From: Desulfosporosinus nitroreducens | GTDB taxonomy: Bacteria; Bacillota; Desulfitobacteriia; Desulfitobacteriales; Desulfitobacteriaceae | Length of the DNA stretch: 64,000 nucleotides | Reading direction: 5' to 3' | Assembly: GCF_023897015.1 (NCBI RefSeq) | Contig: NZ_JAMHFY010000004.1 | Span: 62,001 to 126,000, forward strand | In this document: positions 22,310-39,744 of the stretch, in pieces | Position numbering within the stretch: the first letter of the stretch is position 1 | Layout: each line of letters opens with the position of its first letter | Translations under genes and position numbers: made by a program | Notes under the pieces: model-generated | Seen by the model: only the letters and a program-made list of their open reading frames with translations | What the model was told of the DNA's origin: nothing | Databases searched by the model: none

Positions 22310-22373
22310 TACACAATCAGCTCCAATCAAGTCATTTAGGGTAACCTAAAAAAGATACGCAGTGGAAAAGCAG

Positions 22374-22516: not shown

Positions 22517-23230
22517 TTAAGTTGTTACTGACTTGGGCTTACCAAATTTCAAGCGGCTGTGAGCACAATTTTGCTGTTCGACACACATCTCACAGGTGAT
22601 CGCGCAGGACAAGTTCGGCTTACTCAGCTTTTCTCCAACCGGAATAACAAGAGTATGAGATTTTATCGGAGACATCAACATCGTTTCCCCTAAAGATATG
22701 CCAAGCTCTCCCCCATCCAACAAAGTAAATAAGATTTTCTGAGCTTCCAGGGGAATTTGATAACCACCCGGACATAAATTATGCCCAGTCTGTAAGCCAC
22801 GATCTGACACTTGCTTGACAACCATGCCCCTTAACAATTCTAAAGCTTCATCAAGCGCCACAGTCCCGCAACCGTCTAGAACCATCCCATCGAGCATCTC
22901 CCCATCTTGAAACAAACGGATTGATTCCTCTTCAAGCCGGGAACCGATAGTTTGGATAGCAATTAAAACCTCCTGAGCCCCCTCAAAGAACGAGGCAGCA
23001 GCCCCAACAGGATACTGATTTGCAATAAGAATTTCCCCTGGACCCGAAACCTCCACCGGTACATAACCATAAATACAGCGAGCATCAACAAGTCCTAACG
23101 CTTTGACTCGCATCTCCTCAATGGTTGACTTAAAATTCCGACTCCGTTCCGAGTCTGCATCCGGCATACCAATACGCCGATAAATCTCTGAAGTATCTAA
23201 TTTTAAGTTATCCCACTTTATATATTCCAT
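22517..23230 (-). CDS. Methionine synthase reactivation domain-like protein with Cys-rich tail
   Basis: 237 aa from ATG 23230, GGGAGG nine bases upstream. The body resembles the B12-dependent methionine synthase activation domain (YVPVEVSG, VGAAASFFEG, GHNLCPGGYQIPLEAQ; the latter matches the conserved RxxPGY-type loop region). The C-terminus has four cysteines (CAITCEMCVEQQNC), a likely metal or Fe-S site. In MetH the domain binds SAM and remethylates the oxidised corrinoid. Position between hutI and hutU, and near a corrinoid protein, suggests reductive repair of the corrinoid system. An exact role is inference. Confidence 0.75.
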   Translation of the reverse strand: MEYIKWDNLKLDTSEIYRRIGMPDADSERSRNFKSTIEEMRVKALGLVDARCIYGYVPVEVSGPGEILIANQYPVGAAASFFEGAQEVLIAIQTIGSRLEEESIRLFQDGEMLDGMVLDGCGTVALDEALELLRGMVVKQVSDRGLQTGHNLCPGGYQIPLEAQKILFTLLDGGELGISLGETMLMSPIKSHTLVIPVGEKLSKPNLSCAITCEMCVEQQNCAHSRLKFGKPKSVTT

Positions 23231-23271
23231 CACTTTATCCTCCCAGCTTAACGGAAGCAAAGGGACTATTC

Positions 23272-25290
23272 TCAGACTTCCTTCACTAATCGCTCAATCA
23301 ACTCATCCTTCGGAATAAAAGGCACCGTAATATGCCCCAAACCCTTATACCGCTCATTGAACTCAATGCCAGTCTCAATAGAATGCTCGTTCCTGGCCCA
23401 AGCCCGCCGAGCAACCCCCCCGATTACATCCCACAAAAGCGCAGACTTTATAACCTCATCCACACGTCCACTCCCGTCAAGGACCAAGCCAAATCCTCCA
23501 TTAATAGCTTTACCAATACCGACACCGCCGCCATTATGAAGAGAAACCATACTCATCCCTCGGGCGGCATCTCCGACGAAACTTTGCACAGCCATATCTG
23601 CCATGACATTGCTTCCATCTTTGATATTCGCCGTCTCCCTAAACGGAGAATCCGTTCCACTTACATCGTGATGATCTCGTCCCAGCATGACCGGGCCGAT
23701 CTCTCCATTGCGAATCATCTCATTAAATTTAAGGGCAATCTTAATCCTGCCTTCGGCATCCTGATAAAGAATCCGAGCTTGAGTACCGACAACCAGTTTA
23801 TTTTTCTCAGCATCCTTAATCCAAATATAGTTGTCCCGATCTTGACCCCTGCGGTTTGGATCAATACACCCCATGGCAGCCTCATCCGTTTTACGCAGAT
23901 CTTCCTTTTTCCCGCTTAAACAAACCCATCTAAAAGGCCCATACCCATAATCAAACAGTTCTGGCCCCATAATATCTTCAACATAGGACGGGAAAATAAA
24001 GCCATCCTTCTCATCCACGCCATTTTTCGAAATCTCATTCACTCCGGCATCATAAACTGCCTTCATAAAAGAATTACCATAGTCGAAGAAATAAGTGCCT
24101 CTTTCTACCAACGTCCGAATCAATTCAAACTGCCGAACCAAGCTCTGATCCACAAGCCTTTTGAACTCAGCCCGGTCGGTTGCCAGTAACCTGGTTCGCT
24201 CCTCGAAAGAGATCCCTTGTGGGCAGTATCCGCCTTCATAGGCAACATGACAAGACGTCTGATCACTGAGCAAATCCACTTTAATCTCATGCTTTACCGC
24301 ATACTCCAATAAATCGACAACGTTACCCTGATAAGCAATCGACATGGGCTCTTTTTTCTGCACATACTCAGCCGCAATCCGGAAGACTTCCTCTAGATCC
24401 GCAGACACTCTGCTTACCCACCCCTGCTCATGGCGAGTCTTGATTCTAGATTCATCCACTTCAGCGATAATCCCCACACCTCGGGCAATTTCCACAGATT
24501 TCCCCTGAGCCCCGCTCATCCCGCCAAGACCTGACGAGATAAAAAGATGCCCGCTTATATCCCCATCATGAGGAATTCCTAACTTCATTCGCCCAGCATT
24601 AAGCAACGTATTAAAGGTACCGTGCACAATCCCCTGAGGGCCAATGTACATCCAACCGCCGGCGGTCATCTGACCATAGTTAGCAACACCCATTTGCTCT
24701 GCGATTTCCCAATCCTTCTGATTGTCAAACATCCCGACCATTAAGGCATTCGTAATGATCACGCGCGGAGCTTCCGGACGAGAGGGGAATAATCCGACTG
24801 GATGCCCGGATTCCATGACTAGAGTCTGATGATCCGTCATCACTTCCAAATATTTTTTAATCAAACGATATTGCAGCCAGTTTTGACAGACACTTCCTGT
24901 TTCACCATAGGTAACAAGCTCATAAGGATAAAGTGCCACCTCAAAATCCAGGTTATTATCGATCATCACCTGAAAAGCCTTACCCTCTATACAGTTCCCC
25001 TGATACTCGTCGATAGGTTTACCGGATAATTTCCCTGCCGGACGATAACGATACGCATAAATCCTGCCCCTGGTCCTCAATTCTTCCAGAAACTCGGGTG
25101 CCAACTGTTCATGTAATTCTTCAGGAACATAGCGCAAAGCATTCTTAAGCGCAATTTTAGTTTGACTGGGAGACAGGCTAAACCCCCGATCCGGAGCCCG
25201 CCTAATCCCTTCCACAAATTCCTGCATCTCAGGCAATTCAGGATCCAGCTTAACAGCCATAGCTTGTGAGATTTCATAGTTACTGATCAT
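23272..25290 (-). CDS. hutU: Urocanate hydratase
   Basis: 672 aa from ATG 25290 (GGAG eight bases upstream; an in-frame GTG at 25299 overlaps the site). HutU converts urocanate to imidazolone propionate using tightly bound NAD+. Family stretches include YQGNCIEGKAFQVMIDNNLD, YGETGSVCQNW, TAGGWMYIGPQGIVHGTFNT, SGLGGMSGAQ and the late HNGGGVGIGKAINGG. The length exceeds the ~555 aa of proteobacterial HutU and matches the longer Firmicute type. It lies downstream of the corrinoid protein gene, separated by a 500-bp repeat-rich gap. Confidence 0.96.
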   Translation of the reverse strand: MISNYEISQAMAVKLDPELPEMQEFVEGIRRAPDRGFSLSPSQTKIALKNALRYVPEELHEQLAPEFLEELRTRGRIYAYRYRPAGKLSGKPIDEYQGNCIEGKAFQVMIDNNLDFEVALYPYELVTYGETGSVCQNWLQYRLIKKYLEVMTDHQTLVMESGHPVGLFPSRPEAPRVIITNALMVGMFDNQKDWEIAEQMGVANYGQMTAGGWMYIGPQGIVHGTFNTLLNAGRMKLGIPHDGDISGHLFISSGLGGMSGAQGKSVEIARGVGIIAEVDESRIKTRHEQGWVSRVSADLEEVFRIAAEYVQKKEPMSIAYQGNVVDLLEYAVKHEIKVDLLSDQTSCHVAYEGGYCPQGISFEERTRLLATDRAEFKRLVDQSLVRQFELIRTLVERGTYFFDYGNSFMKAVYDAGVNEISKNGVDEKDGFIFPSYVEDIMGPELFDYGYGPFRWVCLSGKKEDLRKTDEAAMGCIDPNRRGQDRDNYIWIKDAEKNKLVVGTQARILYQDAEGRIKIALKFNEMIRNGEIGPVMLGRDHHDVSGTDSPFRETANIKDGSNVMADMAVQSFVGDAARGMSMVSLHNGGGVGIGKAINGGFGLVLDGSGRVDEVIKSALLWDVIGGVARRAWARNEHSIETGIEFNERYKGLGHITVPFIPKDELIERLVKEV

Positions 25291-25316
25291 CCAGCTCACT
25301 CCTCACTTAATATTTA

Positions 25317-25352: not shown

Positions 25353-25375
25353 CTTATTGGGGGTAGACTCCATCC

Positions 25376-25618
25376 TACGGCGCGAACGTATTCGTATGTG
25401 GATCTGCGCCTTCGGCGTAAGTCTATCCCCAGCGCAATTGTATTCGTTACGGGCCGTGTGCTTTCGGCGATAATCTATCCTCAGCGCAGTTGTATTCGTT
25501 ACAGGCCGTGCGCTTTCGGCGATAGTCTCCACCGGAGACTATCGTACCGGAGACTATCGTACTGGAGACTTACGTCACCGAAAGTCTCGATGTTCAGCTT
25601 TAACCGAACGAGTTCAAT
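25376..25618. repeat. Nested tandem-repeat element, short copy
   Basis: Contains about three degenerate copies of the ~53-bp unit seen at 28115-28450 (GCGCAATTGTATTCGTTACG ... TTTCGGCGATA), then about three 15-bp CCGGAGACTATCGTA units, then the GTTCAGCTTTAACCGAAC hairpin. It fills most of the 525-bp gap between the corrinoid protein gene and hutU. No coding potential is supported. Confidence 0.85.
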
Positions 25619-25815: not shown

Positions 25816-26448
25816 TTAAGCAATTATGCGTCGACACAGCTCTGTTGCCGATGCGGCATCCGCAGCATATCCATCAGCGCCGATTTCATCAGCAAAACTT
25901 TGGGAAATAGGTGCCCCGCCAATAACGACCTTAACGGAATCACGCAAGCCCTCTTCTTTTAAAGCCTCAATCGTATCCTTCATCGAAAGCATGGTTGTTG
26001 TTAAAAGAGCGGACAAACCAATAACTTGAGGGGAATGCTCCTTAACAGCTTTTACAAAAGCAGCCGGATCTATGTCTACACCCAAATCAATAATTTCAAA
26101 TCCGGCACTTTCCATCATCATAACAACCAGCTTTTTACCGATGTCGTGAAGATCGCCCTTAACTGTCCCGATCACCACTTTACCGGCGGTAGGCATGTCT
26201 TTGTCAGCAATCAACGGTTTTAAGAGTTCAATACCTGTACTCATAGCCTTAGCAGACATCATAACCTCTGGAACATACATATCCCCTGCTTTGAAACGAA
26301 CTCCGACCACATTCATGCCCGCCATTAATCCCTGATTAATAATCTCCAGGGGATCATTGCCGTTATCAATCATTTTCTGGGTTAAATCCTTCGCCCCATT
26401 ATAATTTCCATTAATCACGAGTTCAGCCAAGCTGGTAAAATCACTCAT
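25816..26448 (-). CDS. Methyltransferase corrinoid protein (MtbC/MttC-like)
   Basis: 210 aa. The N-terminal helical cap domain covers about 1-85, and the B12-binding domain follows with the cobalt-ligand motif GDLHDIG (His101), then the SxL-type GLSALLTTTM and VVIGGAPISQSFADEIGADGYA. It carries the methyl group between a substrate methyltransferase and the next acceptor. GGAGGAAATC precedes ATG 26448. It lies directly downstream of two MttB-family genes, so it is the likely partner of one or both. Confidence 0.95.
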   Translation of the reverse strand: MSDFTSLAELVINGNYNGAKDLTQKMIDNGNDPLEIINQGLMAGMNVVGVRFKAGDMYVPEVMMSAKAMSTGIELLKPLIADKDMPTAGKVVIGTVKGDLHDIGKKLVVMMMESAGFEIIDLGVDIDPAAFVKAVKEHSPQVIGLSALLTTTMLSMKDTIEALKEEGLRDSVKVVIGGAPISQSFADEIGADGYAADAASATELCRRIIA

Positions 26449-26620: not shown

Positions 26621-28078
26621 TTAAGCTTTCTCCCCAACTCTTTCCTTAGCTTTTCGGAGAATTTCACCGATTTGTGCCCTTACATCCTCGGTGACGGGCT
26701 TAGGCTGGTAAGTTTCCAAGACTTGTTTGATCTGGTCCCTGGCGCGTTCGATCATTGTCTTACTGCCGCTGGCTGTCCAATTTTCATAATTGTTAAAGTC
26801 CGAGAGATCAGGAAACCAGTTATCCCTAAAATGCTTGGCCGTATGGTCATCCCCAAGGAAGTTTCCTCCCGGGCCAACCCGCATGATGGACTCTACACCC
26901 AAGGACTCTTTATCAGTATTGATCCCTTTCAGTAACCGGCGGGTCCTGCCAATAACCTCGTTCGAAATAACCAGCAACTCTAAGGAACCCGTTATGCCAA
27001 ACTCCATATAGAAAACATCATGCATAATATTGCACCCTTGAAGGGCTCCCATTAAGGTGAACATCGTTGACTCCGCGATAGCCTGTTCGTCACAAACCTT
27101 AGAATTACTACACCCGGCATAGCCCCAAGAGGGAAGTTGGTAGTAATGAGCCAGATCAACAGCGCCCCCTTGAAAGAGTACCGCTTCAGGAGTTCCATAA
27201 ACCGCCTGCATCGTTCGCATATCAAGTGGCGAATTTCCATAACCGTAAATAAACGGAGCCCCCGGAGCCTTTAACTGGTGAATAATTAAGCCGCTCAACG
27301 CTTCCGCATTAGCCTGTACCAACGCCCCTGCAATTGTAGTAGGTACAGAAGCACCCGCCACACCACCGCAGGCAAAATTCGCGGGAACCCCATTTTCAGC
27401 AGCAATTAACAGTTTTTCGATGGACTCCTTCGGATGTTGAAGAGGTGAGGTGGGTTCAGTATAAATCATAAACAGAGGCTTCTGACGCAAGCGCTCCTTC
27501 CCACCCACAGCACAGGCTGCCATTTCAATAATATCTAGAAGAGTATCCCCATCTTCAGCAATCACTACCTGAGGTTTCTCCGTATTTTGAACCATAATGG
27601 CATATTGTTCACGATTAATCATACGAGGGTCTACATCGGACAATAAACCCATCGACATGACAAAATCAATATTCGGTAATTTGTCACACAGTCTAATAGC
27701 ATTAGCGACATCTTCTTGACGCCAACTCCGCCGCTCTAAAGTGAAGGGATCCAGGTAATTGAGGGTATCAGACCCGGTCCCGAAGTAAACATTGGCCCCT
27801 TCAAGATGAAGCGCCGCCTCTCCCTTGCGGTTATACAGAGTCACACGCGAAGGAGCCGACTGCAATGCTTGCTTGATTAGAAAACTTGGGAAATAAACCC
27901 GATTACCGTTTTCCACATGTGCCCCGGCTTGCCGAAGCAATTCCACTGCCTCCTCATGGTGAATCACCATGCCTGTGTCTTCAAGAACTTGACAACTTGC
28001 GAGATGAATCTCCTCTGCTTGTTTTTCCGTGAGTGTCCGAAAGAACAGTCCGTTTCCGTGCGAGCTTCCAACTCCCAT
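26621..28078 (-). CDS. MttB-family corrinoid methyltransferase (non-pyrrolysine), copy 1
   Basis: 485-aa member of the trimethylamine methyltransferase superfamily with no in-frame stop, hence lacking the pyrrolysine of archaeal MttB. Relatives such as MtgB of Desulfitobacterium demethylate glycine betaine or other quaternary amines to a corrinoid protein. Family stretches are YFGTGSDTLNYLDP, FACGGVAGASVPTTIAGAL and RVGPGGNFLGDDHTAKHFR. It shares clear similarity with copy 2 at 28611. AAGGGG precedes ATG 28078. The neighbouring betaine transporter supports a quaternary-amine substrate; which one is unknown. Confidence 0.93.
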   Translation of the reverse strand: MGVGSSHGNGLFFRTLTEKQAEEIHLASCQVLEDTGMVIHHEEAVELLRQAGAHVENGNRVYFPSFLIKQALQSAPSRVTLYNRKGEAALHLEGANVYFGTGSDTLNYLDPFTLERRSWRQEDVANAIRLCDKLPNIDFVMSMGLLSDVDPRMINREQYAIMVQNTEKPQVVIAEDGDTLLDIIEMAACAVGGKERLRQKPLFMIYTEPTSPLQHPKESIEKLLIAAENGVPANFACGGVAGASVPTTIAGALVQANAEALSGLIIHQLKAPGAPFIYGYGNSPLDMRTMQAVYGTPEAVLFQGGAVDLAHYYQLPSWGYAGCSNSKVCDEQAIAESTMFTLMGALQGCNIMHDVFYMEFGITGSLELLVISNEVIGRTRRLLKGINTDKESLGVESIMRVGPGGNFLGDDHTAKHFRDNWFPDLSDFNNYENWTASGSKTMIERARDQIKQVLETYQPKPVTEDVRAQIGEILRKAKERVGEKA

Positions 28079-28114: not shown

Positions 28115-28600
28115 TATGCCCCTTCGGCATAAGTCTAGCCTCAGATGCAATTGTATTCGTTACGGGCCGTGCGCCTTCGGCGATAGTCTATCCTCAGCGC
28201 AATCGTATTCGTTACGGGCCGTGCGCCTTCGGCGATAAGTCTATCCTCAGCGCAATCGTATTCGTTACGGGCCTTGCGCCTTCGGCGATAAGTCTATCCT
28301 CAGCGCAATTGTATTCGTTACGGGCCGTGCGCCTTCGGCGATAAGTCTATCCTCAGCGCAATCGTATTCGTTACGGGCCTTGCGCCTTCGGCGATAGTCT
28401 ATCCTCAGCGCAATCGTATTCGTTACGGGCCTTGCGCCTTCGGCGATAGTCTCCACTGGAGACTATCGTACTGGAGACTATCGTACCGGAGACTATCGTA
28501 CCGGAGACTATCGTACCGGAGACTATCGTACCGGAGACTATCGTACCGGAGACTTATGCCACCGAAGTCTCGATGTTCAGCTTTAGCTGAACGAGTTCAC
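28115..28600. repeat. Nested tandem-repeat element, long copy
   Basis: About six to seven copies of a ~53-bp unit (TATCCTCAGCGCAATCGTAT, then TCGTTACGGGCCGTGCGCCT, then TCGGCGATAAGTC) run from about 28120 to 28450. They are followed by about seven 15-bp units CCGGAGACTATCGTA to 28550, and by CACCGAAGTCTCGATG plus the hairpin GTTCAGCTTTAGCTGAAC. The last part of the 53-bp unit and the 15-bp unit are inverted copies (GATAGTCTCC/GGAGACTATC), so the array can fold extensively. It fills the gap between the two MttB genes. It is not a CRISPR: there are no unique spacers. Confidence 0.92.
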
Positions 28601-28610
28601 TAGTTTTCTT

Positions 28611-30074
28611 TTACTTCTTGCTTTTAACTTTTTCCGTCTCAGCAATAATCTCATTTAACCCCTCACGGATTGCTCCATCCAACAGTTCCGAGGTATGGGT
28701 GGCCACGATGTGCTTGGTTAATTCCTCAGCCTTGTCTTCCATCGATTTAGACCCCTGCTCTTCCCAGATCTCCCAGAATGAGCTATTGAACTGTTTAGAC
28801 GACCAAATCTCTTCACGGAAGTGTTTAAACGTATGTTCATGGCTAACGTAGTTCCCGCCAGGTCCCACTTCATCGATCACATCCACAGCCATGGTCTCTT
28901 CATCAATTCGAGTTCCTCTCCCCATGTAACGGGCATTATCCATATAATCATTACACATAGTAAGGAAAGTCAGGGAACCAGTTTTTCCGCCTTCCAAATA
29001 GCCCACATCATGGACCAGGTTAGCACCCATTAACTGAGCCATCAAAATCCCATTTCCGGCTTCCATGCCAGCCTGAGCATCAGGTATCGGGGAATTAACA
29101 CACCCAGCCTCCGTAAAGTTTGGAATTCCATAAAACTGTGACAATTGAGTCATAATAGCGTAATTCATCATCGTCTCCGGAGATCCATACAAGGTCGCAG
29201 TGGTCTTCATGTCCATAGGAGTAGCACCGCCGCCGATAATAATCGGAGCTCCCTTTTGTTTTAGTTGAGCCATAACCACCCCTGCCAGAGCTTCTGCATT
29301 CATCAAAACGATGGTTCCGGCTTTCGTAACCGGTGTAGTAGCCCCGGACAAAACTCCCGGAGTATATACAACGGGCACTCCATATTCAAAGCAAGCAAAC
29401 ATCTTGCCCACTCCGTCATTCGTGTGTACCAAGGGGGAGATCGGCTCTGAATAAAGAATCATAAACGGATTTTTTCTCAGTTCCTCTTTACCGCCAGCCA
29501 CTAAAGCAGCCATCTCTAATTGCGCCCGCATATTGATTTCATCATGGGCAGTAACGATCATGGGTTTTGTAGTATTCGTAACCATTGCTTCTAACTGATG
29601 CAGATCGCTCACTTTTGAGTTCGTGTCCGCAGCAATGGCATAACTCATCACAAAATCATAATTAGGAAGAAAATCCATGACTCGGCAAGCCCGTTCGACA
29701 TCCCTCTTACCGGAGCGTCTCCGCTTACCCGTTTCTAAATCTATCGTATAAGGCAGATCTGAGCCTGTCCCGAAATAGGTGCGATTCTTTTCCAAGGGCA
29801 TAACCCGTTGTCCCTTCCGATTAGCAACCACAATTTTGCGCGGTGCTAAGCGCAGGCATTCCTCAACCAGCCAACTGGGAATTCGAACTCGATTCTCATT
29901 GACAATACATCCGGCATCTTTTAATAACTGTAACGCTTCCGGGTGATCAACTTTAACTCCGGTTCGTTCTAAGACTTCTAAAGTTGCAAAATGAATTTCC
30001 TCGATCTGTCCCTCACTCACCCAGCGTAATAATGGCGTTGTTTGTTCTATACTATTGGAACGAATCTTTCTCAT
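28611..30074 (-). CDS. MttB-family corrinoid methyltransferase (non-pyrrolysine), copy 2
   Basis: 487 aa, same superfamily as the previous gene and also without an internal stop. Typical parts: YFGTGSDLPYTIDLETGKRR, TPGVLSGATTPVTKAGTIVL, GGGATPMDMKTTATLYGSPE, DEVGPGGNYVSHEHTFKHFR. ATG 30074 has only a weak AGG upstream. It is the first gene after a very good -24/-12 promoter match at 30338-30355, so it may lead a sigma-54 transcript through mttB copy 1 and the corrinoid gene. Glycine betaine or a related methylated amine is the likely substrate by context. Confidence 0.93.
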   Translation of the reverse strand: MRKIRSNSIEQTTPLLRWVSEGQIEEIHFATLEVLERTGVKVDHPEALQLLKDAGCIVNENRVRIPSWLVEECLRLAPRKIVVANRKGQRVMPLEKNRTYFGTGSDLPYTIDLETGKRRRSGKRDVERACRVMDFLPNYDFVMSYAIAADTNSKVSDLHQLEAMVTNTTKPMIVTAHDEINMRAQLEMAALVAGGKEELRKNPFMILYSEPISPLVHTNDGVGKMFACFEYGVPVVYTPGVLSGATTPVTKAGTIVLMNAEALAGVVMAQLKQKGAPIIIGGGATPMDMKTTATLYGSPETMMNYAIMTQLSQFYGIPNFTEAGCVNSPIPDAQAGMEAGNGILMAQLMGANLVHDVGYLEGGKTGSLTFLTMCNDYMDNARYMGRGTRIDEETMAVDVIDEVGPGGNYVSHEHTFKHFREEIWSSKQFNSSFWEIWEEQGSKSMEDKAEELTKHIVATHTSELLDGAIREGLNEIIAETEKVKSKK

Positions 30075-30337: not shown

Positions 30338-30355
30338 TTGCAAGATTTATGCCAT
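30338..30355 (-). promoter_or_regulatory. Sigma-54 promoter upstream of the methyltransferase genes
   Basis: Minus-strand TGGCATAAATCTTGCA matches the -24/-12 consensus TGGCAC-N5-TTGCA with GG and GC exactly ten bases apart. A start site near 30328 would leave about 250 nt of leader before mttB copy 2. The rest of 30075-30580 shows no gene. Confidence 0.75.
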
Positions 30356-30469
30356 CCCTTAAACTGGGAGTGGATTTCTCTTTTTAATCAATACTTACTA
30401 TTAATATATCGGTATCCTAAAGGGTTTTCTTAACTTTTAAAATTAAGAGTTTAGCCACTCTATAAACAG

Positions 30470-30503
30470 GCAAAAAACAAAGTGCTAAAATATTTTGCAC
30501 TTC
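30470..30503 (-). terminator. Terminator after the Fe-S protein gene
   Basis: Minus-strand AAGTGCAAAAT/ATTTTAGCACTT stem followed by TTTGTTTTTT, about 80 bases after the Fe-S protein stop. The palindrome could alternatively be an activator site, see findings. Confidence 0.65.
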
Positions 30504-30580
30504 TACTATCTTCTTACTCCGCCTCACTGTTGCGCTTGCACAAACGCATAAATCTTTTGCTATGCTAAAATTTATTGCTG

Positions 30581-31570
30581 TTAATTTATTGTTTTTCGTT
30601 CAATCACAGAAATAGCCTTAGCAGGGCAGGCCTCTTCACAAATCCCGCATCCCCAACACTTGGTCAGGTCAAACTCAACCTTGCTCCGACGTTTACCCTT
30701 GACCATCACTTCCGCCTCTCCTATATAAAAAGCCCCAAAATTACAACGCTTGGCGCAAGCACCACAATGCGAACACTTAGAGTCATCCCTCTGAACCAGG
30801 ATTTGACTCACCGGAAATACACCCTTGGTTCCTTTTTCTTGAGCCAAACGCAAGGGATAACAACAGCAGGAGCAACAATTGCAGATATAAGTCGGTCCCT
30901 TAATCCGCCAGTCGCTGTTCACTTGATGCATTAGACCTTTCTTATGAGCCGCCTTTACCAGTTCCTTGGCTTCTTCCTTCGTAAGGGACCGCCCGAAGGT
31001 CCGATCAGTTATCGAATCATTAAAGGTTAAACAGGTTTCTGTCGGCTTAACACAATGGCTTGCTAACTTACGACAATTACACGGAACTACCCTGATATCA
31101 CTCACGGACTCAAGTACTTCATCAAGGTCTTCAATCAATAAAAACTGCTCCGGAGCCCTGTCTACCACTTCCTTATTGATAAGCGAATCCAGATAGGAAT
31201 TCATCTTCCCTGCATAAACCTGATAACACCACTGATCCAAAGCCTTCCGCAAATCCTTGTCAATCAAAGGATAGCTTTCATCAAACTTACACACATAATC
31301 TAAGAGCTCATAAAAATCGGCTCCAAAATAAACAAGCTCCCCATCAAGCTCTTCCCTATGAACAATATGTTTATCATAACAGGCATCCAATAAAACCTGG
31401 GCATCTTCAAAAGAACAATCCAACCTTGCAACAATTTCCGAGACAGAACACTTTTCACCATTAAGCCCAACCACAAGACCCATCTCGCCCTCAGATACAA
31501 ACCGATCCATATGCAAAACAACGAATTCCGGTACACCAAACAAAGACACAAACCGATCAATCACAGCCAT
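30581..31570 (-). CDS. 4Fe-4S protein associated with corrinoid methyltransferases
   Basis: 329 aa from ATG 31570 (AGGAAG upstream). The N-terminal ~100 residues resemble a winged-helix-like fold. A central Cys cluster follows (VPCNCRKL with ASHC, and CNCCSCCCYPL). The C-terminus has two classic ferredoxin motifs: CSHCGACAKRC (with CNFGAF) and CWGCGICEEACPAKAI. Similar proteins occur in MttB/corrinoid clusters of Clostridia, probably feeding electrons to reactivate the corrinoid; that role is inferred. It lies between the transporter and methyltransferase genes on the same strand. Confidence 0.82.
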   Translation of the reverse strand: MAVIDRFVSLFGVPEFVVLHMDRFVSEGEMGLVVGLNGEKCSVSEIVARLDCSFEDAQVLLDACYDKHIVHREELDGELVYFGADFYELLDYVCKFDESYPLIDKDLRKALDQWCYQVYAGKMNSYLDSLINKEVVDRAPEQFLLIEDLDEVLESVSDIRVVPCNCRKLASHCVKPTETCLTFNDSITDRTFGRSLTKEEAKELVKAAHKKGLMHQVNSDWRIKGPTYICNCCSCCCYPLRLAQEKGTKGVFPVSQILVQRDDSKCSHCGACAKRCNFGAFYIGEAEVMVKGKRRSKVEFDLTKCWGCGICEEACPAKAISVIERKTIN

Positions 31571-31660
31571 CAAACTTCCTGCCTTTCACGTTGAAAAAGT
31601 TATAAAGCCACTCTATACCCCTTGCAAATATATGGAGTATAAAGTGGCAATTTAATCAAG

Positions 31661-31694
31661 TCCGAGACTCCCACTTCTTCAAGTGGGTGTTCCA
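31661..31694. repeat. Dispersed hairpin repeat GAGACTCCCACTT, copy 2
   Basis: TCCGAGACTCCCACTTCTTC followed by AAGTGGGTGTTCC; same element as at 25317. It lies just after the substrate-binding protein gene and may act as its terminator. Confidence 0.75.
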
Positions 31695-31716
31695 TATTCT
31701 ACTTCGGTGACGACAA

Positions 31717-32664
31717 TTACTTTAACAACCCTTTACTCTTTAAGAACGTCGTTGAAACTTCATCAATGGACTTCTTCTCAACATCGGCTTGCATGTTCAG
31801 TTCAGTAATAGTTAGAGTGTCTAACACGGAGCTTAACTTCTTAAGATCGGCGGCCAAAGTAGGATAAGCATCCACAATTTGCTGACGAACGACAGGGGCA
31901 GCATTATAGACCGGGAATGCCTTTTTATCGTCTTCAAGCATAACAAGCTTATCTGTAACAATCCTTGGTTCTGTAGTGAAGGCCAAAGCCAGATCCCCTT
32001 TTTGATTTTTAAGAGTTTCATAGTTTAAACCCATCGCTACATTAACAAAATCACCTTTAGGCATCTTGAAATCATATACCTTTTCAAAAGAAGGCAGTCC
32101 ATCCGCTCTTCCTTCCCATTCAGGGAAGCCAACGAACTTTAAGGTTTCTCCCTTTTTCACTTGGGCAACATAGTCCGAAATAGTTTTAAGCTTATACTTT
32201 TCTGCAACATCCGGACGAACTACGATTCCATAAGTATCATTGAGCGGAGCATATTCTAACCAGGCAATTCCATTCTTAGCATCCCATTCTTTGATGAGTT
32301 TGTAGCTTTCCTCAGCCTCAAACACGGGAGCATGCTCCATCAAATTCATAACACCTGTTCCAGTGTACTCCCAATATAGATCAATTTGCCCGGAAGTAAG
32401 AGCCGGTCTGATTACCGCTAACTCACCAAGGCCCATTTTATTTTCAACGGGATACCCTAATCCTTCTAGATACTGAAGACTCAGTGTTCCTAAAATTGCC
32501 GCTTCAGTGAAGGTCTTAGACGAAATTTTAATGGTTGGTCCTTCTTTTCCCTTATCTGGAGCAGTTCCGGCAGTAGGCGTCTTTGCGCAACCGAACACCC
32601 CTCCCAAAGCTAATGTCAGGGACAAGACTGCAACGAGAAATAGTGATTTCTTCTTCATGTACAT
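31717..32664 (-). CDS. Glycine betaine/osmoprotectant-binding lipoprotein (OpuCC-like)
   Basis: 315 aa from ATG 32664 (AAGGAAGGGG directly upstream; an in-frame TTG at 32679 overlaps this). The signal peptide ends in a lipobox LGGVFGC, so it is a lipid-anchored binding protein. The mature part matches the OpuAC/OpuC-type quaternary amine-binding family (ISSKTFTEAAILGTLSLQYL, QIDLYWEYTGTGVMNL, GFPEWEGRADGLPSFEKVYD). It is last in the transporter run, about 270 bases after the second permease. Substrate may be glycine betaine, choline or carnitine. Confidence 0.93.
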   Translation of the reverse strand: MYMKKKSLFLVAVLSLTLALGGVFGCAKTPTAGTAPDKGKEGPTIKISSKTFTEAAILGTLSLQYLEGLGYPVENKMGLGELAVIRPALTSGQIDLYWEYTGTGVMNLMEHAPVFEAEESYKLIKEWDAKNGIAWLEYAPLNDTYGIVVRPDVAEKYKLKTISDYVAQVKKGETLKFVGFPEWEGRADGLPSFEKVYDFKMPKGDFVNVAMGLNYETLKNQKGDLALAFTTEPRIVTDKLVMLEDDKKAFPVYNAAPVVRQQIVDAYPTLAADLKKLSSVLDTLTITELNMQADVEKKSIDEVSTTFLKSKGLLK

Positions 32665-32932
32665 ACCCCTTCCTTTCAACTATTTGTGCTAATTATACAT
32701 CTTTTCATTTCATAATATTACCAAAGGCTTTTTATATGTCCTACCCCCTCCTTTTTTTGCCCTTTTAAAAACCGTCCCTCGTTCCCCTCAAGCACCTTTG
32801 CATGAAGATCCAAAGAGCTCCTAAAATCATATCCAACCCCGTCAATCAGTTAAAAAGATAGACGGAAGGACGCCCCTAGGCAAAGTAGAATACCCACCCC
32901 GACCTGAAACCAGAGGATTGACTTAGCCAAAC

Positions 32933-33577
32933 CTACTCCGCCCCCATACCAGGAGGAGTAATTCGATGCTCAAGATAATTAATCATCCTGTCTAAAAATA
33001 TAGCCATCAGCGCCCCGAGCCCTGCCCCAACCAGCAGATACTCAGGCCGGAAGAGCGCTAACCCGCCCATAATCAGATTGCCCAAGCCTCCTGCTCCAAT
33101 AAGAGAAGCTAATGTACCTATACTTACAACATAAACAGTCGCCGTCCGGATACCGCTCAAAATGATCGGCACAGCCAAGGGAAGCTCCACTTCTAAAAGA
33201 ATCCTTCGCTGAGACATCCCCATACCGCTGGCTGCTTCCTTCACATCCGAGCTAACCCCTAATAAACCGGCAATTGTATTCCTAACGATAGGCAATAAAC
33301 TCTGAAATAAAAGAGCAACTATAGCGGGCTTCATGCCCAAACCGAGAATCGGCAAGGCCAAGGCAATAACCGCAATCCCCGGCACAGCTTGTAAAAGGTT
33401 AAGTATATTAAGGGTAACAAGACCGAACTTTTTAAATTTCGGACGGCTTAGGAAGATCCCCAGCGGTACTGAAATCAGGATTGCAAGTGTTATGGTGATA
33501 ACAACAATCAGGGAATGCTCCCACAAAGCCTCAGGTGCCTTCTCGAAAAGAGCAAACCTGAAATTCTCCCACTTCAT
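32933..33577 (-). CDS. Osmoprotectant ABC transporter permease (OpuCB/OpuCD-like)
   Basis: 214 aa with about five to six membrane helices and the BPD permease EAA-like loop (EAASGMGMSQRRILLEVELP). Its ATG follows the ATPase stop without any gap, so the two are coupled. It pairs with the other permease to form the channel of a quaternary amine importer. Confidence 0.93.
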   Translation of the reverse strand: MKWENFRFALFEKAPEALWEHSLIVVITITLAILISVPLGIFLSRPKFKKFGLVTLNILNLLQAVPGIAVIALALPILGLGMKPAIVALLFQSLLPIVRNTIAGLLGVSSDVKEAASGMGMSQRRILLEVELPLAVPIILSGIRTATVYVVSIGTLASLIGAGGLGNLIMGGLALFRPEYLLVGAGLGALMAIFLDRMINYLEHRITPPGMGAE

Positions 33578-34693
33578 TTACTCACCCTCTTTCCGATAAA
33601 CATGCTTCCTAATCCCTTTGAAAGAGAGCATCCCGCATAATTCCTCGCCCTTCAGAATCCCAAGATAATCCGTATCATATTCCAGTAATAAAGAGAGTGC
33701 ATCCGGGAAAGGAGTCGTCGTTTGGACAAAAGCCTTTTCCCTCCTAAGGACTCGTTTCCGCAGCCCCTCTATATCCCTCCCGAACTCTTCCGTATCAGAA
33801 ACCGTAATTTGCCCGCAAGCCTTGCCCTCGTCATTTAAGAGGAAGGCCACCTGGGCCCCGGCATCCTTCATTTTCTGGGCAACATTATGTAACTCATTCC
33901 CCTTCACGACACAACCAATGGGTTGCATGGCATCTTCAGCCAGATATAAATTTAATTTTTTCACAACCCGATCACGGCCAATAAAATCTTCGACAAACTC
34001 GTTAATCGGATTCGTTAAAATCTCTTCCGGAGTCCCAAATTGAACTAATTTTCCAGCGTCAAAAATGGCAATCCTATCTCCCATTTTTATGGCTTCGTTA
34101 ATATCATGAGTAACAAAAACGATGGTCTTCTTAATCTCTTTCTGTAAACGAAGCAATTCATCCTGCAAATGCGTCCGTGCAATCGGGTCGACTGCCCCGA
34201 AAGGCTCATCCATCAGCATGATGGGCGGATCGACAGCCATCGCCCTGGCGACTCCCACTCTCTGCATTTGCCCCCCGCTTAGCTGGGCCGGATACTTGCC
34301 CCTTGTTTTTTCCAGGTCAAGTCCCATCATGACAATAAGCTCATCAACACGTTTCCTAATCTTCTCCTTCGGCCATTTATACAGACGAGGCACGATGGCA
34401 ATATTTTCAGCAATCGTACGGTGCGGCAAAAGTCCAATCTGTTGAATGACATAGCCAATCCCCATCCGCAGTTGGTCTGGATCAGTACGAGTTACATCTT
34501 CTCCGTTAATTTTGACGATCCCGGATGTAGGCTCGATCATTCGGTTAATCATACGCAAAATTGTACTTTTTCCACAGCCTGAGGGTCCGACTAAGACACA
34601 GATCTCTCCCTTAGGAATAGAGAGAAATAATTTATCGACAGCCGGCATTGCTTGACCTGGGTACTGCTTCGTAATTTGCTCTAATTCAATCAT
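33578..34693 (-). CDS. Osmoprotectant ABC transporter ATPase with CBS domains (OpuCA-like)
   Basis: 371 aa from ATG 34693 (AGGAGG six bases upstream). NBD: Walker A GPSGCGKST, signature LSGGQMQRVG, Walker B MLMDEPFGAVD, H-loop FVTHD. From about residue 250 two CBS repeats follow (AEDAMQPIG..., then FVQTTTPFPDALSLLLEYD). In OpuA/OpuC systems the CBS domains sense ionic strength or c-di-AMP. It lies between the two permease genes. A catabolic rather than purely osmotic use is suggested by the methyltransferase neighbours. Confidence 0.95.
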   Translation of the reverse strand: MIELEQITKQYPGQAMPAVDKLFLSIPKGEICVLVGPSGCGKSTILRMINRMIEPTSGIVKINGEDVTRTDPDQLRMGIGYVIQQIGLLPHRTIAENIAIVPRLYKWPKEKIRKRVDELIVMMGLDLEKTRGKYPAQLSGGQMQRVGVARAMAVDPPIMLMDEPFGAVDPIARTHLQDELLRLQKEIKKTIVFVTHDINEAIKMGDRIAIFDAGKLVQFGTPEEILTNPINEFVEDFIGRDRVVKKLNLYLAEDAMQPIGCVVKGNELHNVAQKMKDAGAQVAFLLNDEGKACGQITVSDTEEFGRDIEGLRKRVLRREKAFVQTTTPFPDALSLLLEYDTDYLGILKGEELCGMLSFKGIRKHVYRKEGE

Positions 34694-34755
34694 CGGAATC
34701 CTCCTCTGCAAACTCTATCCCGTCCTCAGTTCGACCTAACTATGCTGATGAGGAG

Positions 34756-35412
34756 TTAGCGACTAATTCTTAATCCTTTAGGAACAATCCTTTTCTCCAC
34801 CAACCCAAGAATAGTATCTAAACCGATGGCAATCACCGAGATAATCAGGGCGCCTGTCACCATCATAGGAGTATTAGAACGGATAAGGCCCTCTTGAATA
34901 AAACGCCCTAAATTACGCTCCCCAATATAGGTAGCAATTGCCGCAATGCCAGTGGTCATTACCACAGTAATTCGAAAACCCGCAAAAATAATGGGCATAC
35001 CTAAAGGCACAAGAATTTCGATGAGAATCCTTCTTGTGCCCATACCCATCCCCCTAGCCGCCTCGATCACATTGCGATCCACGTTTTTAACCCCGTCATA
35101 AACGCTGCGAATCAAGGGCATCATCGCGTAGAGAACCAACGCCAGCAGAGCTGACTTTCGACCTAAGCCAAACATGGGAATAGTTACTAAAATAGCAAAC
35201 ATAGACAAACTGGGAATACAAAATATCGTGTTCGCCAGAGCCAAGACCCTAGCTGCCCATTTATCGCTTTTTGTCAATAAAAGTCCCACAGGTACCCAAA
35301 TCGCTAAAGAAATCCCTACCGCCAACAAGACCAAGGTAAAATGATTTTCGGAGTATTCCATAATAGTCTTGGAATTCTTCATTAGAAAACTAGTAAAATC
35401 TGATAAGGTCAC
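34756..35412 (-). CDS. Osmoprotectant ABC transporter permease, first gene of the transporter operon
   Basis: 218 aa, about six helices, EAA-like loop EAARGMGMGTRRILIEILVP. The start is GTG 35412 behind GAGGTG. A -24/-12 promoter match lies about 100 bases upstream, so it likely heads the sigma-54-dependent operon permease-ATPase-permease-binding protein. Confidence 0.93.
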   Translation of the reverse strand: MTLSDFTSFLMKNSKTIMEYSENHFTLVLLAVGISLAIWVPVGLLLTKSDKWAARVLALANTIFCIPSLSMFAILVTIPMFGLGRKSALLALVLYAMMPLIRSVYDGVKNVDRNVIEAARGMGMGTRRILIEILVPLGMPIIFAGFRITVVMTTGIAAIATYIGERNLGRFIQEGLIRSNTPMMVTGALIISVIAIGLDTILGLVEKRIVPKGLRISR

Positions 35413-35514
35413 TCGCCATCACCTCACTTTCTTTCGTTATTCTAATAAAGAATCTGCCCCTTCAAAGAGGTGGGAACTTGATAATTCAAAATAAAGCGTT
35501 AAATCTAATAATTG

Positions 35515-35531
35515 TTGCAAGAACCATGCCT
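35515..35531 (-). promoter_or_regulatory. Sigma-54 promoter upstream of the betaine transporter
   Basis: Minus-strand AGGCATGGTTCTTGCAA fits the -24/-12 consensus, with GG and GC ten bases apart and a perfect TTGCA. It lies between the sigma-54 activator gene and the transporter operon. Confidence 0.75.
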
Positions 35532-35666
35532 AATTCCTTACAATTGAGAGTTTATGGCCTTTTTCCTTACCGAACAAAAGCTAGGCGCCAAATTAATTTG
35601 CTGATATAGGACAGGAAGTCCTTGCCAGAAGCAGTTTTAGGACAAGTGCATATTATTATTGCCTGC

Positions 35667-37076
35667 CTAAGAATTATGCATCCCCAGCTTTTTCATGCGG
35701 TATTGGAGATTTTGCCGAGCAATTCCAATGGATTCAGCCGCCCTGGTGATATTCCAGTCATGGCTTTTCAAAGCTTCCCAAAGCACTTGCTTTTCAACCT
35801 CACGCAAAACATGACTCAGAGTGCTGGACCCCTTCTTATAGAATTCAGAAAAGGTTCCATCCTGACTCAGAAACTTCGCTCTAAGATAATGTGGCAAATG
35901 GTCAACGGTTATAACCTTTCGTCCATCCAGCATATTCATAGCGCTTTCAATAATATGCTCCAATTCCCGTACATTTCCGGGCCACAGATATCTAAGAAAT
36001 ATATCCTTTAACTCAGCAGCAATCTGAACCTCACCTAAACCATATATTTTTTGATAGCGATTTAAAAACCAATGGATTAATGCTTCAATATCTTCCGCCC
36101 TGTCTTTCAAAGGTGGAATAAAAAGGGTCATCACCGCTAAACGATAAAAAAGATCCTTACGCAAACTGCCATTGTTCACCGATTCCCACGGATCAACATT
36201 TGTAGAACTGATAACTCGGCAGTGCACCGGAATCTCCATGGTCCCGCCCACCCGTCTGACCATTCTTTCTTGAACTACCCGCAAAATCTTAGCCTGCAGG
36301 GCAATACTCATACAATTAAGTTCATCTAAAAACAAAGTCCCATTTCCAGCCTGTTGAAATAAGCCCTTAGAGTCTACCGCTCCAGTAAAAGCCCCCTTAG
36401 CCGTTCCAAAAAGAATACTTTCCAGCAAGGTTTCCGGAATAGCCGCACAGTTAATCGCTACAAAAGGCTCATTTTTGCGGGCGCTGTGATTGTGAATCGC
36501 TTGAACCAGCAATTCCTTACCTGTTCCTGTCTCGCCAAAGACTAAGATGAATCCATCAGCTACCGCTGCTTTTTTTGCCGAAGCAACCAGATTGTGCATA
36601 GCAGGACTGGCATAAACGATTGATTCAAACGTATAGCGAGTTCCATTACTGCTCCGATTCTCTTGCCCTTCCAGACCGATTTGGTCGTGCAATTGCATCG
36701 TCTTCGTCAGCAATTCTTTAAACTTGGTAATATCTTTACATACAGAATAGACCGCAACAACCTCATCGTCTTCTATCACGGGAAATGTGCTGGCTATAAT
36801 AGTGACCTCTTTACCTTTGTTCGTAAAATAAGTCTTATGCTTCTCCAAAACCGGTTCACGAGTTAAAACAACGCTCAAGTGTTCGCTGCTTTCCACAGTA
36901 ACAGCATCATACACTTCATTTAAATACTTTCCGACAACGTGTTCGGATAACAACTCTTCTAACTTAGCCATTTCAGAATTATAAAAGATTATCTTACCCT
37001 CAGGGTCGGTAACAATAACCCCTTCGTCAATTGAATTAAAGAGATGCCTGAAAACTTGGTCCATAACACGAGGCAT
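35667..37076 (-). CDS. Sigma-54-dependent transcriptional activator (PAS-AAA+-Fis HTH)
   Basis: 469 aa from ATG 37076; an upstream in-frame TTG at 37130 is an alternative with a GAGG only three bases away. A PAS domain (FNSIDEGVIVTDPEGKIIFY) fills the N-terminus. The AAA+ domain has Walker A GETGTGKE, the sigma-54 contact loop GAFTGA and Walker B GTLFLDE. A Fis-type HTH ends the protein (WNITRAAESIGIARQNLQYR). It resembles RocR/PrdR-like regulators of amino acid catabolism. Two -24/-12 promoters nearby make the betaine transporter and methyltransferase genes its likely targets. The PAS ligand is unknown. Confidence 0.95.
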   Translation of the reverse strand: MPRVMDQVFRHLFNSIDEGVIVTDPEGKIIFYNSEMAKLEELLSEHVVGKYLNEVYDAVTVESSEHLSVVLTREPVLEKHKTYFTNKGKEVTIIASTFPVIEDDEVVAVYSVCKDITKFKELLTKTMQLHDQIGLEGQENRSSNGTRYTFESIVYASPAMHNLVASAKKAAVADGFILVFGETGTGKELLVQAIHNHSARKNEPFVAINCAAIPETLLESILFGTAKGAFTGAVDSKGLFQQAGNGTLFLDELNCMSIALQAKILRVVQERMVRRVGGTMEIPVHCRVISSTNVDPWESVNNGSLRKDLFYRLAVMTLFIPPLKDRAEDIEALIHWFLNRYQKIYGLGEVQIAAELKDIFLRYLWPGNVRELEHIIESAMNMLDGRKVITVDHLPHYLRAKFLSQDGTFSEFYKKGSSTLSHVLREVEKQVLWEALKSHDWNITRAAESIGIARQNLQYRMKKLGMHNS

Positions 37077-37153: not shown

Positions 37154-38026
37154 TTATGGTTTAGGGAGTAAATCCTCCAGAAGATCGTAAGCTAAGCCCC
37201 GAATAGCCTGACGTTTATACTCTTGCGAAGCACGGCCTGGAATCGCTCGGTCAACTGCATCTGTTAAATGGTCGGCAACTTCCTCAGCAAAATCCGAATT
37301 AACCTGCTTGCCTTGTAATCCCCGCTCCAATTCCTCTAAACGAAAGGGGATGGGTCCCAAAGCTCCCACAGCCCATCTTGAGGAAAGAATTTTTTGGTCC
37401 TCTGGGTCATATTCCACCATTGCCGCCATATTCAACCGGGCAATTGAGACCGCAGTACGACTTCCAATTTTCCCAAAAGCACTAATAATTCCTGCTCTCC
37501 CCTGGGATTTCCAGATTGGAAAATCGATCTCTGTTATCAATTCCTTCTTCTGCAAACCTTGACCGTCTCCCCCTTGGAACTGAGCAAAGGGCACTCTCCG
37601 CACACCCTGTGGTCCGGCAATATTGACCCACGCTTCCAGAACCAGCAAAGCAGGCAAACTGTCTCCGGCGGGCGAGGCGTTCGCAATATTTCCGCCTATA
37701 GTAGCCCTGTTTCGAATTTGAGCAGACCCTACCTGAGATGCCGCCTGGCTCAAACACCGAGCCTTCCCACTCAGCAAATCACTTTCACTGATTTGGGTAA
37801 AGGTTGTCCCGCTCCCGATCCTCACCCTTCCCTCAACTTCCTCAATGAATTTCAGTTCCGGAATCAAGGAAAGATCCATAAGCCAAGCAGGTCGTATCTG
37901 CCCCCCTTGTAACTTAATGACAAGATCAGTGCCACCACTTATAAAAACGACGTCCTCATTAATTCGAGAAATAGTCTCAATACCTTCCACAACTGTCGCC
38001 GGACAAACAAACTCACATTTCGTCAT
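37154..38026 (-). CDS. Molybdenum hydroxylase FAD-binding subunit, orphan
   Basis: 290 aa from ATG 38026 (GGAG eight bases upstream). It matches the medium FAD subunit of xanthine dehydrogenase/CO dehydrogenase-type enzymes: FISGGTDLVIKLQGG, IGSGTTFTQI, and the second FAD loop ATIGGNIANASPAGDSLPAL. The large molybdopterin subunit and the small Fe-S subunit are not adjacent, so its partners are elsewhere or it has a different role. It precedes the sigma-54 activator on the same strand and may be co-transcribed with it. Confidence 0.9.
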   Translation of the reverse strand: MTKCEFVCPATVVEGIETISRINEDVVFISGGTDLVIKLQGGQIRPAWLMDLSLIPELKFIEEVEGRVRIGSGTTFTQISESDLLSGKARCLSQAASQVGSAQIRNRATIGGNIANASPAGDSLPALLVLEAWVNIAGPQGVRRVPFAQFQGGDGQGLQKKELITEIDFPIWKSQGRAGIISAFGKIGSRTAVSIARLNMAAMVEYDPEDQKILSSRWAVGALGPIPFRLEELERGLQGKQVNSDFAEEVADHLTDAVDRAIPGRASQEYKRQAIRGLAYDLLEDLLPKP

Positions 38027-38156
38027 CCTAAAAACTCCTCTATTTCTCCTACTTACAGAACATGAAGGGAACATGGTGGTTCTTGTCCAACCACGATTCT
38101 TGAACTTAATTGTTCTAAATATTCGATATTTAGTACGCGTATCCCTTCCTTATTGT

Positions 38157-38472: not shown

Positions 38473-39744
38473 ATGAGCAACTATAACGCAGTATTAGCAA
38501 GAAATACGGAAAATGCTCCAAAAGGTATCGGTCCATATTCACAAACTGTAGCTTTCTCTCATTACAATAATCTTTCAGCTCAATTACCCATCGATCCAAA
38601 ATCCGGCAAGTTGGTAGCTGGTGGTGCAAAAGAGCAGGCTGAACAGTGCTTTAAAAATATCAAAGCAATTGTAGACAGCATCAACCATGTTATGAGCGAT
38701 GTTGTTAGAATCACTGTATTCGTTAAGAATATTAAAGATATTGATGCTGTAGACGAAGTTTATAAAACATTCTTCCCAGGCTATGTTCCTACACGGACGA
38801 ATGTCGCAGTTGCAGCTTTGCCTATGGATGCTTTGGTGCAAATTGAAGCACTTGTTTCAAACGGTGAAGGTACAATTCCAAACGCACCACAAGCAGGCGA
38901 CCTCATAAAGCTTACAAATAACACGGCTAATGCGCCAACATGTCCTCTATCTACGCAAGTTGTAGCTTTTTCTCATTACAATAATCTTTCAGCTCAATTA
39001 CCTATCGATCCAAAATCCGGTAGAGTGGTAGCCGGTGGTGTAAAAGAGCAGGCTGGACAGTGCTTAAAGAATATCAAGGCAATTTTAGAAAGTATCGACG
39101 TTCCTTTTGACGATATTGTTAAAATTAATATCTTCCTCAAAAACCTCTCGGATATTGAAGCCGTAAACGAAGTTTATACAACATTTTTCCCAGACTCGGC
39201 TATCGCCAGGACCGCAGCCTATGTCCCTGCACGGACAACAGTTGCAGCTTCAGCTTTACCTATGGATGCTTTGATACAAATTGAAGCAGTGGTGTCACAC
39301 GGAGATGGTACACCCCCACAAGCTGTTGAAGACAGGCATGGACTCATCATAGAAGCAAACAATACGGAAAATGCACCAAAAAGTTCTCTATATACACAAA
39401 CTGTAGCTTTTTCTCATTACAATCATATTTCAGCTCAATTACCTCTAAACCCCAAAACTGGTGAAATGGTAGCTGGTGGTGTAAAAGAGCAGGCTGGACA
39501 GTGCTTAAAAAATATCAAGGCAATTGTAGAAAGTCTCGACCACGTTATGGACGATGTGGTTAAAGTAAATATCTTCCTTAAAAATATCGCAGATATTAAT
39601 GCTGTAGACGAAGTTTACACAACATTCTTCCCAAGCGGTGTTCCTGCACGAAGAACAGTTGGCGTATCAGCTTTACCTAAAGATGCTTTAGTCCAAATCG
39701 ATGCAGTTGTATCAAACGCTGAAGGAACACCTCCAAAAGCATAA
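38473..39744 (+). CDS. Triple RidA-domain fusion protein
   Basis: 423 aa built from three tandem RidA/YjgF domains (about 8-132, 150-280 and 296-420). Ordinary RidA is ~130 aa and works as a homotrimer that hydrolyses reactive enamine/imine intermediates, with active sites at subunit interfaces. Here each repeat keeps the catalytic Arg (Arg108, Arg254, Arg393 in the P-x-R motif) and the IEA/IDA C-terminal strand; the usual SGQ is SAQ in all three. Repeat 2 has an extra ~8 residues (DSAIARTAA). The repeats are also similar in DNA (the GTAGCTTTTTCTCATTACAA block recurs), pointing to recent duplication. No signal peptide; gene stands alone with terminators behind it. Confidence 0.93.
   Translation: MSNYNAVLARNTENAPKGIGPYSQTVAFSHYNNLSAQLPIDPKSGKLVAGGAKEQAEQCFKNIKAIVDSINHVMSDVVRITVFVKNIKDIDAVDEVYKTFFPGYVPTRTNVAVAALPMDALVQIEALVSNGEGTIPNAPQAGDLIKLTNNTANAPTCPLSTQVVAFSHYNNLSAQLPIDPKSGRVVAGGVKEQAGQCLKNIKAILESIDVPFDDIVKINIFLKNLSDIEAVNEVYTTFFPDSAIARTAAYVPARTTVAASALPMDALIQIEAVVSHGDGTPPQAVEDRHGLIIEANNTENAPKSSLYTQTVAFSHYNHISAQLPLNPKTGEMVAGGVKEQAGQCLKNIKAIVESLDHVMDDVVKVNIFLKNIADINAVDEVYTTFFPSGVPARRTVGVSALPKDALVQIDAVVSNAEGTPPKA

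Follow-up and report, generated by a model that had tools for sequence, protein, structure and literature searches.

A stretch of 64,000 nucleotides from the sulfate reducer Desulfosporosinus nitroreducens (positions 62001-126000 of contig C44 in this genome, G000; hereafter the window) was analyzed. It contains two sigma-54 promoters, one ahead of an OpuC-type transporter operon and the other ahead of a methyltransferase operon followed by histidine utilization (hut) genes. Taken as a whole, these genes likely constitute a substrate-induced sigma-54 regulon for the uptake of hercynine (histidine betaine), its vitamin-B12-dependent demethylation and its degradation through the Hut pathway, a reading drawn from sequence and genomic context. 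All the genes lie on the minus strand, running from 38074 to 21053 in the order xdhB-like, activator, permease, ATPase, permease, binding protein, iron-sulfur protein, mttB1, mttB2, corrinoid protein, hutU, a gene for a 247-aa protein, and hutI. Other genomes, contigs and loci are identified below by our G, C and L numbers.

Two sigma-54 promoters and a shared dyad

The element on the methyltransferase side, TGGCATAAATCTTGCA, occupies 30354-30339 of the minus strand, and the element on the transporter side, AGGCATGGTTCTTGCA, occupies 35531-35516 of the same strand. Both are -24/-12 elements with the GG-N10-GC spacing. The initial annotation had noted them at 30338-30355 and 35515-35531, correct within one base, and had placed one at the head of the methyltransferase genes and the other at the head of the transporter. 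This assignment was borne out, with both elements conserved in relatives and recurring at orthologous places. The annotated start lies 106 bp from the -12 GC for the transporter and 267 bp from it for the methyltransferase.

The pattern GGCAYN5TTGCW has exactly two matches in the window, and these are the two promoters. Shuffled windows averaged 0.40 matches and 6 of 100 shuffles reached two, so the window count is modest evidence when taken alone. In the whole genome, the pattern was matched 109 times compared to 12 times for its reversed form, and a single match to the sigma-54 DNA-binding domain was found. Conservation was surveyed across the 22 genomes that carry a close ortholog of mttB1. 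Before the transporter gene permB, the best site in the gap scored at least 9/11 in 18 of the 20 assessable genomes (G053 and G057 were left out, as the contig or fetched stretch ends), and it was not found in the gap of G039 or G045. Before mttB1, the best site scored at least 10/11 in 19 of 22 genomes. It was not found in G021, G027 and G045, in which mttB1 is 57-149 bp away from the preceding gene. These counts are not independent events since the genomes are related. A chance origin of both sites was rejected on the conservation together with the genome-wide excess, despite the result with the shuffles. Judged by pattern and conservation, we regard both as genuine -24/-12 elements of predicted sigma-54 promoters. 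Scans for sigma-70 promoters and for terminators gave scores at the level of shuffles.

The activator gene (37130-35667, minus strand) lies beside the transporter promoter, as the initial annotation had claimed, and encodes a PAS domain (PAS_4), a sigma-54 AAA+ domain with the GAFTGA motif (PF00158, 204.8 bits) and a Fis-type helix-turn-helix (PF02954). The protein is 99% identical to its counterpart in Desulfosporosinus lacus DSM 15449. An unsupervised search for palindromes found the dyad GCAAA-N5-TTTGC in both sets of upstream regions. Two matrices were built, A from 12 transporter-promoter regions and B from 12 methyltransferase-promoter regions, and each was applied to the other set. Matrix A gave a summed score of 214 on the 12 B regions, compared to 54 +/- 12 for shuffles (largest of 300, 99), and matrix B gave 205 on the 12 A regions, compared to 32 +/- 13 (largest, 65).

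The three best sites in the window by either matrix all fall within the two promoter regions. One candidate dyad lies upstream of the transporter promoter at 35587-35601 (18.2 with the joint matrix, 15.7 with the matrix of the other promoter). Two lie upstream of the methyltransferase promoter, at 30546-30560 (17.1 and 16.9) and 30484-30498 (19.1 and 16.2). With matrix A, the next best site, located elsewhere in the window, is close behind (15.7 after 16.2). When the 260 bp ahead of another 30 sigma-54-type sites were scanned (those that come first in the list of 109), no dyad scored above 6.6. In genomes outside the training set, which are related to it, a best dyad of about 15 or more was found in five of six transporter promoters (G027 has 10) and in all seven methyltransferase promoters. 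The dyad common to both upstream regions suggests one activator for both promoters. A single activator of this kind is well supported by these comparisons, with the dyads as its predicted operators, and a substrate-induced regulon is very probably the correct description of the regulation.

An XdhB-like flavoprotein subunit of the molybdenum hydroxylase family (37154-38074, minus strand; PF00941 and PF03450 above cut-off) is encoded 23 bp before the activator gene. The same neighbor was found beside the activator in all 11 loci L032-L042, the named Desulfosporosinus loci that make up 11 of the 22 genomes above. In G021 (L133), an activator homolog of 46% identity precedes the transporter and the XdhB-like gene is not before it. 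Several relatives carry XdhA at the hut end of the cluster, and a molybdenum hydroxylase may therefore belong to the pathway. Beyond the XdhB-like gene, a 423-aa protein with three tandem RidA-type domains is encoded at 38473-39744; nothing at the D. lacus locus L032 matches it.

Linkage of MttB1 to the hut genes

Both methyltransferases, MttB1 (28611-30074, minus strand; PF06253, 343 bits; Cys at the pyrrolysine position) and MttB2 (26621-28078, minus strand; PF06253, 307 bits), exceed the family cut-off and have no in-frame TAG, and are thus non-pyrrolysine members of the MttB superfamily. MttB1 is the predicted hercynine:corrinoid methyltransferase. The cognate corrinoid protein expected of an MttB system follows at 25816-26448 (minus strand; TIGR02370, 223.6 bits, cut-off 215.3). 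Behind it on the same strand are hutU, for urocanate hydratase (23272-25299; TIGR01228, 434 bits, cut-off 375), the gene for the 247-aa protein (22517-23260), and hutI, for imidazolonepropionase (21053-22330; TIGR01224, 465 bits, cut-off 298). HutU and HutI both exceed equivalog cut-offs, which places them in the Hut pathway.

Close relatives were surveyed in 82 genomes of the class, with 78% identity or more taken as the threshold for an MttB1 ortholog. MttB1 was found in 22 of them: 19 of the genus (our own included), two of another genus and one of another family. One or more hut genes were present in the contig cluster of MttB1 in all 22. G034, G033, G044 and G023 have the order mttB1-mttB2-corrinoid-methyltetrahydrofolate:corrinoid methyltransferase-hutH-hutU-FTCD_C-ftcD-hutI-xdhA, which was checked with profiles for G034 and G023 and for the xdhA of G044. 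The linkage was kept in G044, G023 and G034, where the transporter and MttB1 lie apart. The gene hutH stands between mttB2 and the corrinoid gene in G052 and G057 (MttB1-MttB2-HutH-corrinoid-MeTr), and in G053 the contig ends at hutH. Within the genus, mttB1 and hutU occur together in 19 genomes, hutU alone in four, neither in six (several incomplete) and mttB1 alone in none (hypergeometric 4.4e-4, with kinship ignored).

More distant orthologs were sought in a sample of 398 genomes of the phylum, where each genome contributed no more than three scored candidates. At least 11 further MttB1 orthologs of 61-73% identity were found in other families. HutU or HutH lies within about 10 kb on the same contig in 9 of the 11 (G201, G377, G265, G160, G176, G439, G138, G398 and G241), and HutH stands between MttB2 and MttB1 in G176, G138 and G241. 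In six genomes of one family (G160, G284, G354, G377, G398 and G439), another run of genes lies behind the methyltransferase genes. In G439, the products of this run passed the cut-offs for methylaspartate mutase S, GlmL, methylaspartate mutase E and methylaspartate ammonia-lyase; the runs of the other five are similar in lengths and order, as compared without profiles. A FastTree tree of 93 MttB segments grouped MttB1 of all 33 genomes into a single clade with 36 members, which also holds two paralogs from L170 (49-51%) and has uneven internal support. Together, these data provide a genomic context that may point to the substrate.

HutH of the four Desulfosporosinus operons has Ala-Ser-Gly at the site of the 4-methylideneimidazole-5-one (MIO) group, which we take to be the motif that forms MIO in HutH. 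HutH of G052, G053 and G057 (L125, L127 and L128) has Ser-Ser-Gly there, and the others compared have Ala-Ser-Gly.

Several further features of the cluster were observed. The 247-aa protein is Cys-rich and conserved in many of these clusters. It had no match in Pfam or NCBIfam, and its only relevant match among PDB sequences was 1j6r (E=0.008, by phmmer and profile), a weak likeness to a methionine-synthase activation domain. An AlphaFold model from the single sequence had a mean predicted local distance difference test (pLDDT) score of 33. A PF03313 (SDH_alpha) protein is encoded at 17751-19052, 2 kb beyond hutI, and near hutI also in L072, L118 and L119; this family presumably includes cysteine desulfidase. 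Tandem arrays of 53-nt and 15-nt units (ACCGGAGACTATCGT) occupy the gaps between mttB1 and mttB2 (28132-28573) and between the corrinoid gene and hutU (25367-25616), and the two gaps share a 172-nt stretch that is 87% alike.

A proposed hercynine pathway and its alternatives

The transporter operon encodes two OpuC-type permeases of the ATP-binding cassette (ABC) class (34756-35412 and 32933-33577; both PF00528), an ABC ATPase of the betaine/proline/choline subfamily (33578-34711; TIGR01186, 339 bits, cut-off 326.6) and a quaternary-amine binding protein (31717-32679; PF04069, 175 bits), all on the minus strand. The binding protein is the only OpuAC-domain match in the genome, and its solved relatives include binders of betaine, choline and carnitine. 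It is followed by an iron-sulfur protein with a C-terminal 2x[4Fe-4S] region (30581-31573, minus strand; PF00037 and related families), a possible electron donor.

Hercynine is suggested as the substrate because genes for the import of quaternary amines, for two methyltransferases of such amines and for histidine degradation are kept together, and on this evidence it is probably the correct one. In the pathway we propose, the activator would sense the substrate or a product, bind the dyads upstream of both promoters (adjacency being what points to this activator) and open sigma-54 polymerase at both. The transporter promoter would drive the OpuC/OsmF-type importer and, if the transcript extends that far, the iron-sulfur protein. 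The other promoter would drive MttB1, MttB2 and the corrinoid protein, and perhaps the genes from hutU through that for the 247-aa protein to hutI by read-through. MttB1 and MttB2 would transfer the methyls of the trimethylammonium group, in a presumed order, to Co(I) of the corrinoid protein and from there to tetrahydrofolate. The freed or partly methylated histidine would then pass through HutH, encoded elsewhere in the genome, HutU and HutI towards glutamate.

The initial annotation had proposed a betaine regulon under catabolic rather than osmotic sigma-54 control. The catabolic control stood, with a dyad shared by both promoters; the choice of betaine, choline or carnitine as the substrate did not. 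The same regulon acting on one of these three is improbable, although they would suit an OpuC-type transporter, MttB-superfamily enzymes and a binding protein with the relatives described above. The genome has 12 MttB matches, of which one is a contig-end fragment and three have an in-frame TAG. One paralog on contig C2 scored 881 bits against the solved glycine betaine methyltransferase 9yce, compared to only 198 bits for MttB1, which is thus not closely similar to MtgB. The genes flanking the C2 copy encode two BCCT carriers and an MtrH-type protein. Glycine betaine was therefore rejected as the main substrate. Carnitine and choline enzymes were not located in the genome, and none of the three substrates would explain the hut linkage in 22 of 22 genomes. 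HutH (C21) and HutU (C44) both lie away from the other MttB genes of this genome. The TAG-bearing genes are on contigs C6, C28 and C30 (L049, L054 and L051), with the TAG at the pyrrolysine position, and several of the MttB loci in this genome carry their own sigma-54 site and activator. A TAG flagged in MttB1 of G057 as a pyrrolysine codon was found to be the terminal stop.

Plain osmoprotectant uptake, with the methyltransferases regulated separately, would agree with a transporter of the OpuC/OsmF family. This is extremely unlikely given that the dyad and the sigma-54 element are common to both promoters. Ergothioneine in place of hercynine as the substrate is very unlikely. An OpuC-family importer of ergothioneine, EgtU, is described in PMC9732360. 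The binding protein gave 101 bits in an alignment with EgtUC, and the PF03313 protein beyond hutI leaves some room for this substrate. However, hutU passes the cut-off for urocanate hydratase and falls far below those for thiourocanate hydratase, with 293 of 930 bits for NF058530 and 326 of 880 bits for NF058531.

The hut genes could also be chance neighbors, if a methyltransferase cassette acting on an unrelated betaine had landed by an old hut operon. Four members of the genus do have hutU without MttB1 (G035, G020, G026 and G043). In G035 and G020, the hut genes lie beside the same MacB-HlyD-Obg neighbors without MttB, suggesting that this is an old hut site, which the MttB cassette either joined or left. 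Chance proximity is nevertheless unlikely. HutH stands inside the methyltransferase gene run in G052, G057, G176, G138 and G241, and between families the order is reshuffled while the linkage is kept. In addition, MttB homologs in L134 (39-46%), L170 (41-51%) and L171 (43-48%) have no hut neighbors in the stretches read. This contrast is not a clean one, as MttB proteins of 44-46% in L129-L132 adjoin a HutH paralog; these operons are perhaps a related pathway. This second type of operon (G027, G052, G045 and G012) has an activator homolog, a sigma-54 site, MttB, the HutH paralog (43-46%) and a further MttB; two of the four loci also carry XdhC/XdhB/XdhA-like genes. In G027, it precedes the transporter.

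Besides the genomes with hutU and no MttB1, several observations weigh against a hercynine regulon. Hercynine has three methyl groups and the cluster has two methyltransferases. The single HutH is encoded on contig C21 beside hutP and not in this cluster, and a gap of 516 bp with a repeat array separates the corrinoid gene from hutU; hutU may therefore have its own promoter. Two of the 11 distant orthologs lack clear linkage on a single contig: G284 carries no more than a HutH-like fragment where its contig starts, with its hut genes adjoining the transporter on another contig, and G354 has its hut and transporter genes on another contig. The binding protein is nearest to OsmF (solved structure 4wep) but scores 190 bits against the cut-off of 400 for the OsmF equivalog NF049931, so that its match is at the level of the PF04069 family. 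As for the dyads, unrelated window positions, coding sequence included, score 13-15 (best 14.6 with the joint matrix), compared to 13.3 for a weaker candidate dyad at 35665-35679 that overlaps the activator stop codon. Weak dyads were also found in the training genome G032 (13 at both promoters) and, as noted, in G027. Finally, with about 40 strong activator-domain matches in the genome, only adjacency points to this protein as the cognate activator.

Relation to known systems

The non-pyrrolysine MttB enzymes characterized to date use quaternary amines as substrates (PMC8604678). The other known substrates of the superfamily are noted in the literature to be, like hercynine, carboxylated quaternary amines. 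The known systems of MtgB, MtpB, MtcB, MtyB and MthB likewise pair a non-pyrrolysine MttB with a cognate corrinoid protein; the present cluster differs in having two MttB genes, linked both to hut genes and to a sigma-54 activator. Substrate-specific production of the MttB systems of Eubacterium limosum is reported in PMC8604678 and PMC12155760, and the word "hercynine" is absent from the main text of both papers. The Hut pathway for histidine degradation shares HutH, HutU, HutI, FtcD and FTCD_C proteins with the clusters across relatives. It differs in that methyltransferase genes precede the hut genes here, with predicted sigma-54 promoter control at least in part.

A work on sigma-54 regulons of Clostridia names MttB (COG5598) as sigma-54 regulated and describes many activators in Desulfosporosinus orientis (PMC12316311). 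No joint transporter, MttB and Hut regulon was found in the available portions of this literature, and "betaine" and "methyltransferase" are absent from the main text of PMC6615313. The EgtU/ergothionase route is similar in having a quaternary-amine importer from a related family and a HAL-like enzyme that acts on a histidine betaine, as described in PMC9732360 and PMC13405746. Ergothionase lacks MIO and releases trimethylamine, according to PMC13405746, whereas methyltransferases are present here and HutH of four Desulfosporosinus operons keeps Ala-Ser-Gly. Among the literature matches listed, with most subscription journals outside their coverage, no paper joined hercynine with corrinoid methyltransferases.

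On balance, we lean towards MttB1 and MttB2 being dedicated hercynine demethylases in an anaerobic hercynine-to-glutamate pathway with its own importer, activator and operator. The pathway would occur in several families of the phylum, in one of which the cluster would continue into glutamate fermentation. The genomic context thus gives one more MttB subfamily a definite substrate prediction, together with an activator, a likely operator and two promoters. If the prediction is true, demethylation instead of the release of trimethylamine would be an anaerobic fate for hercynine.

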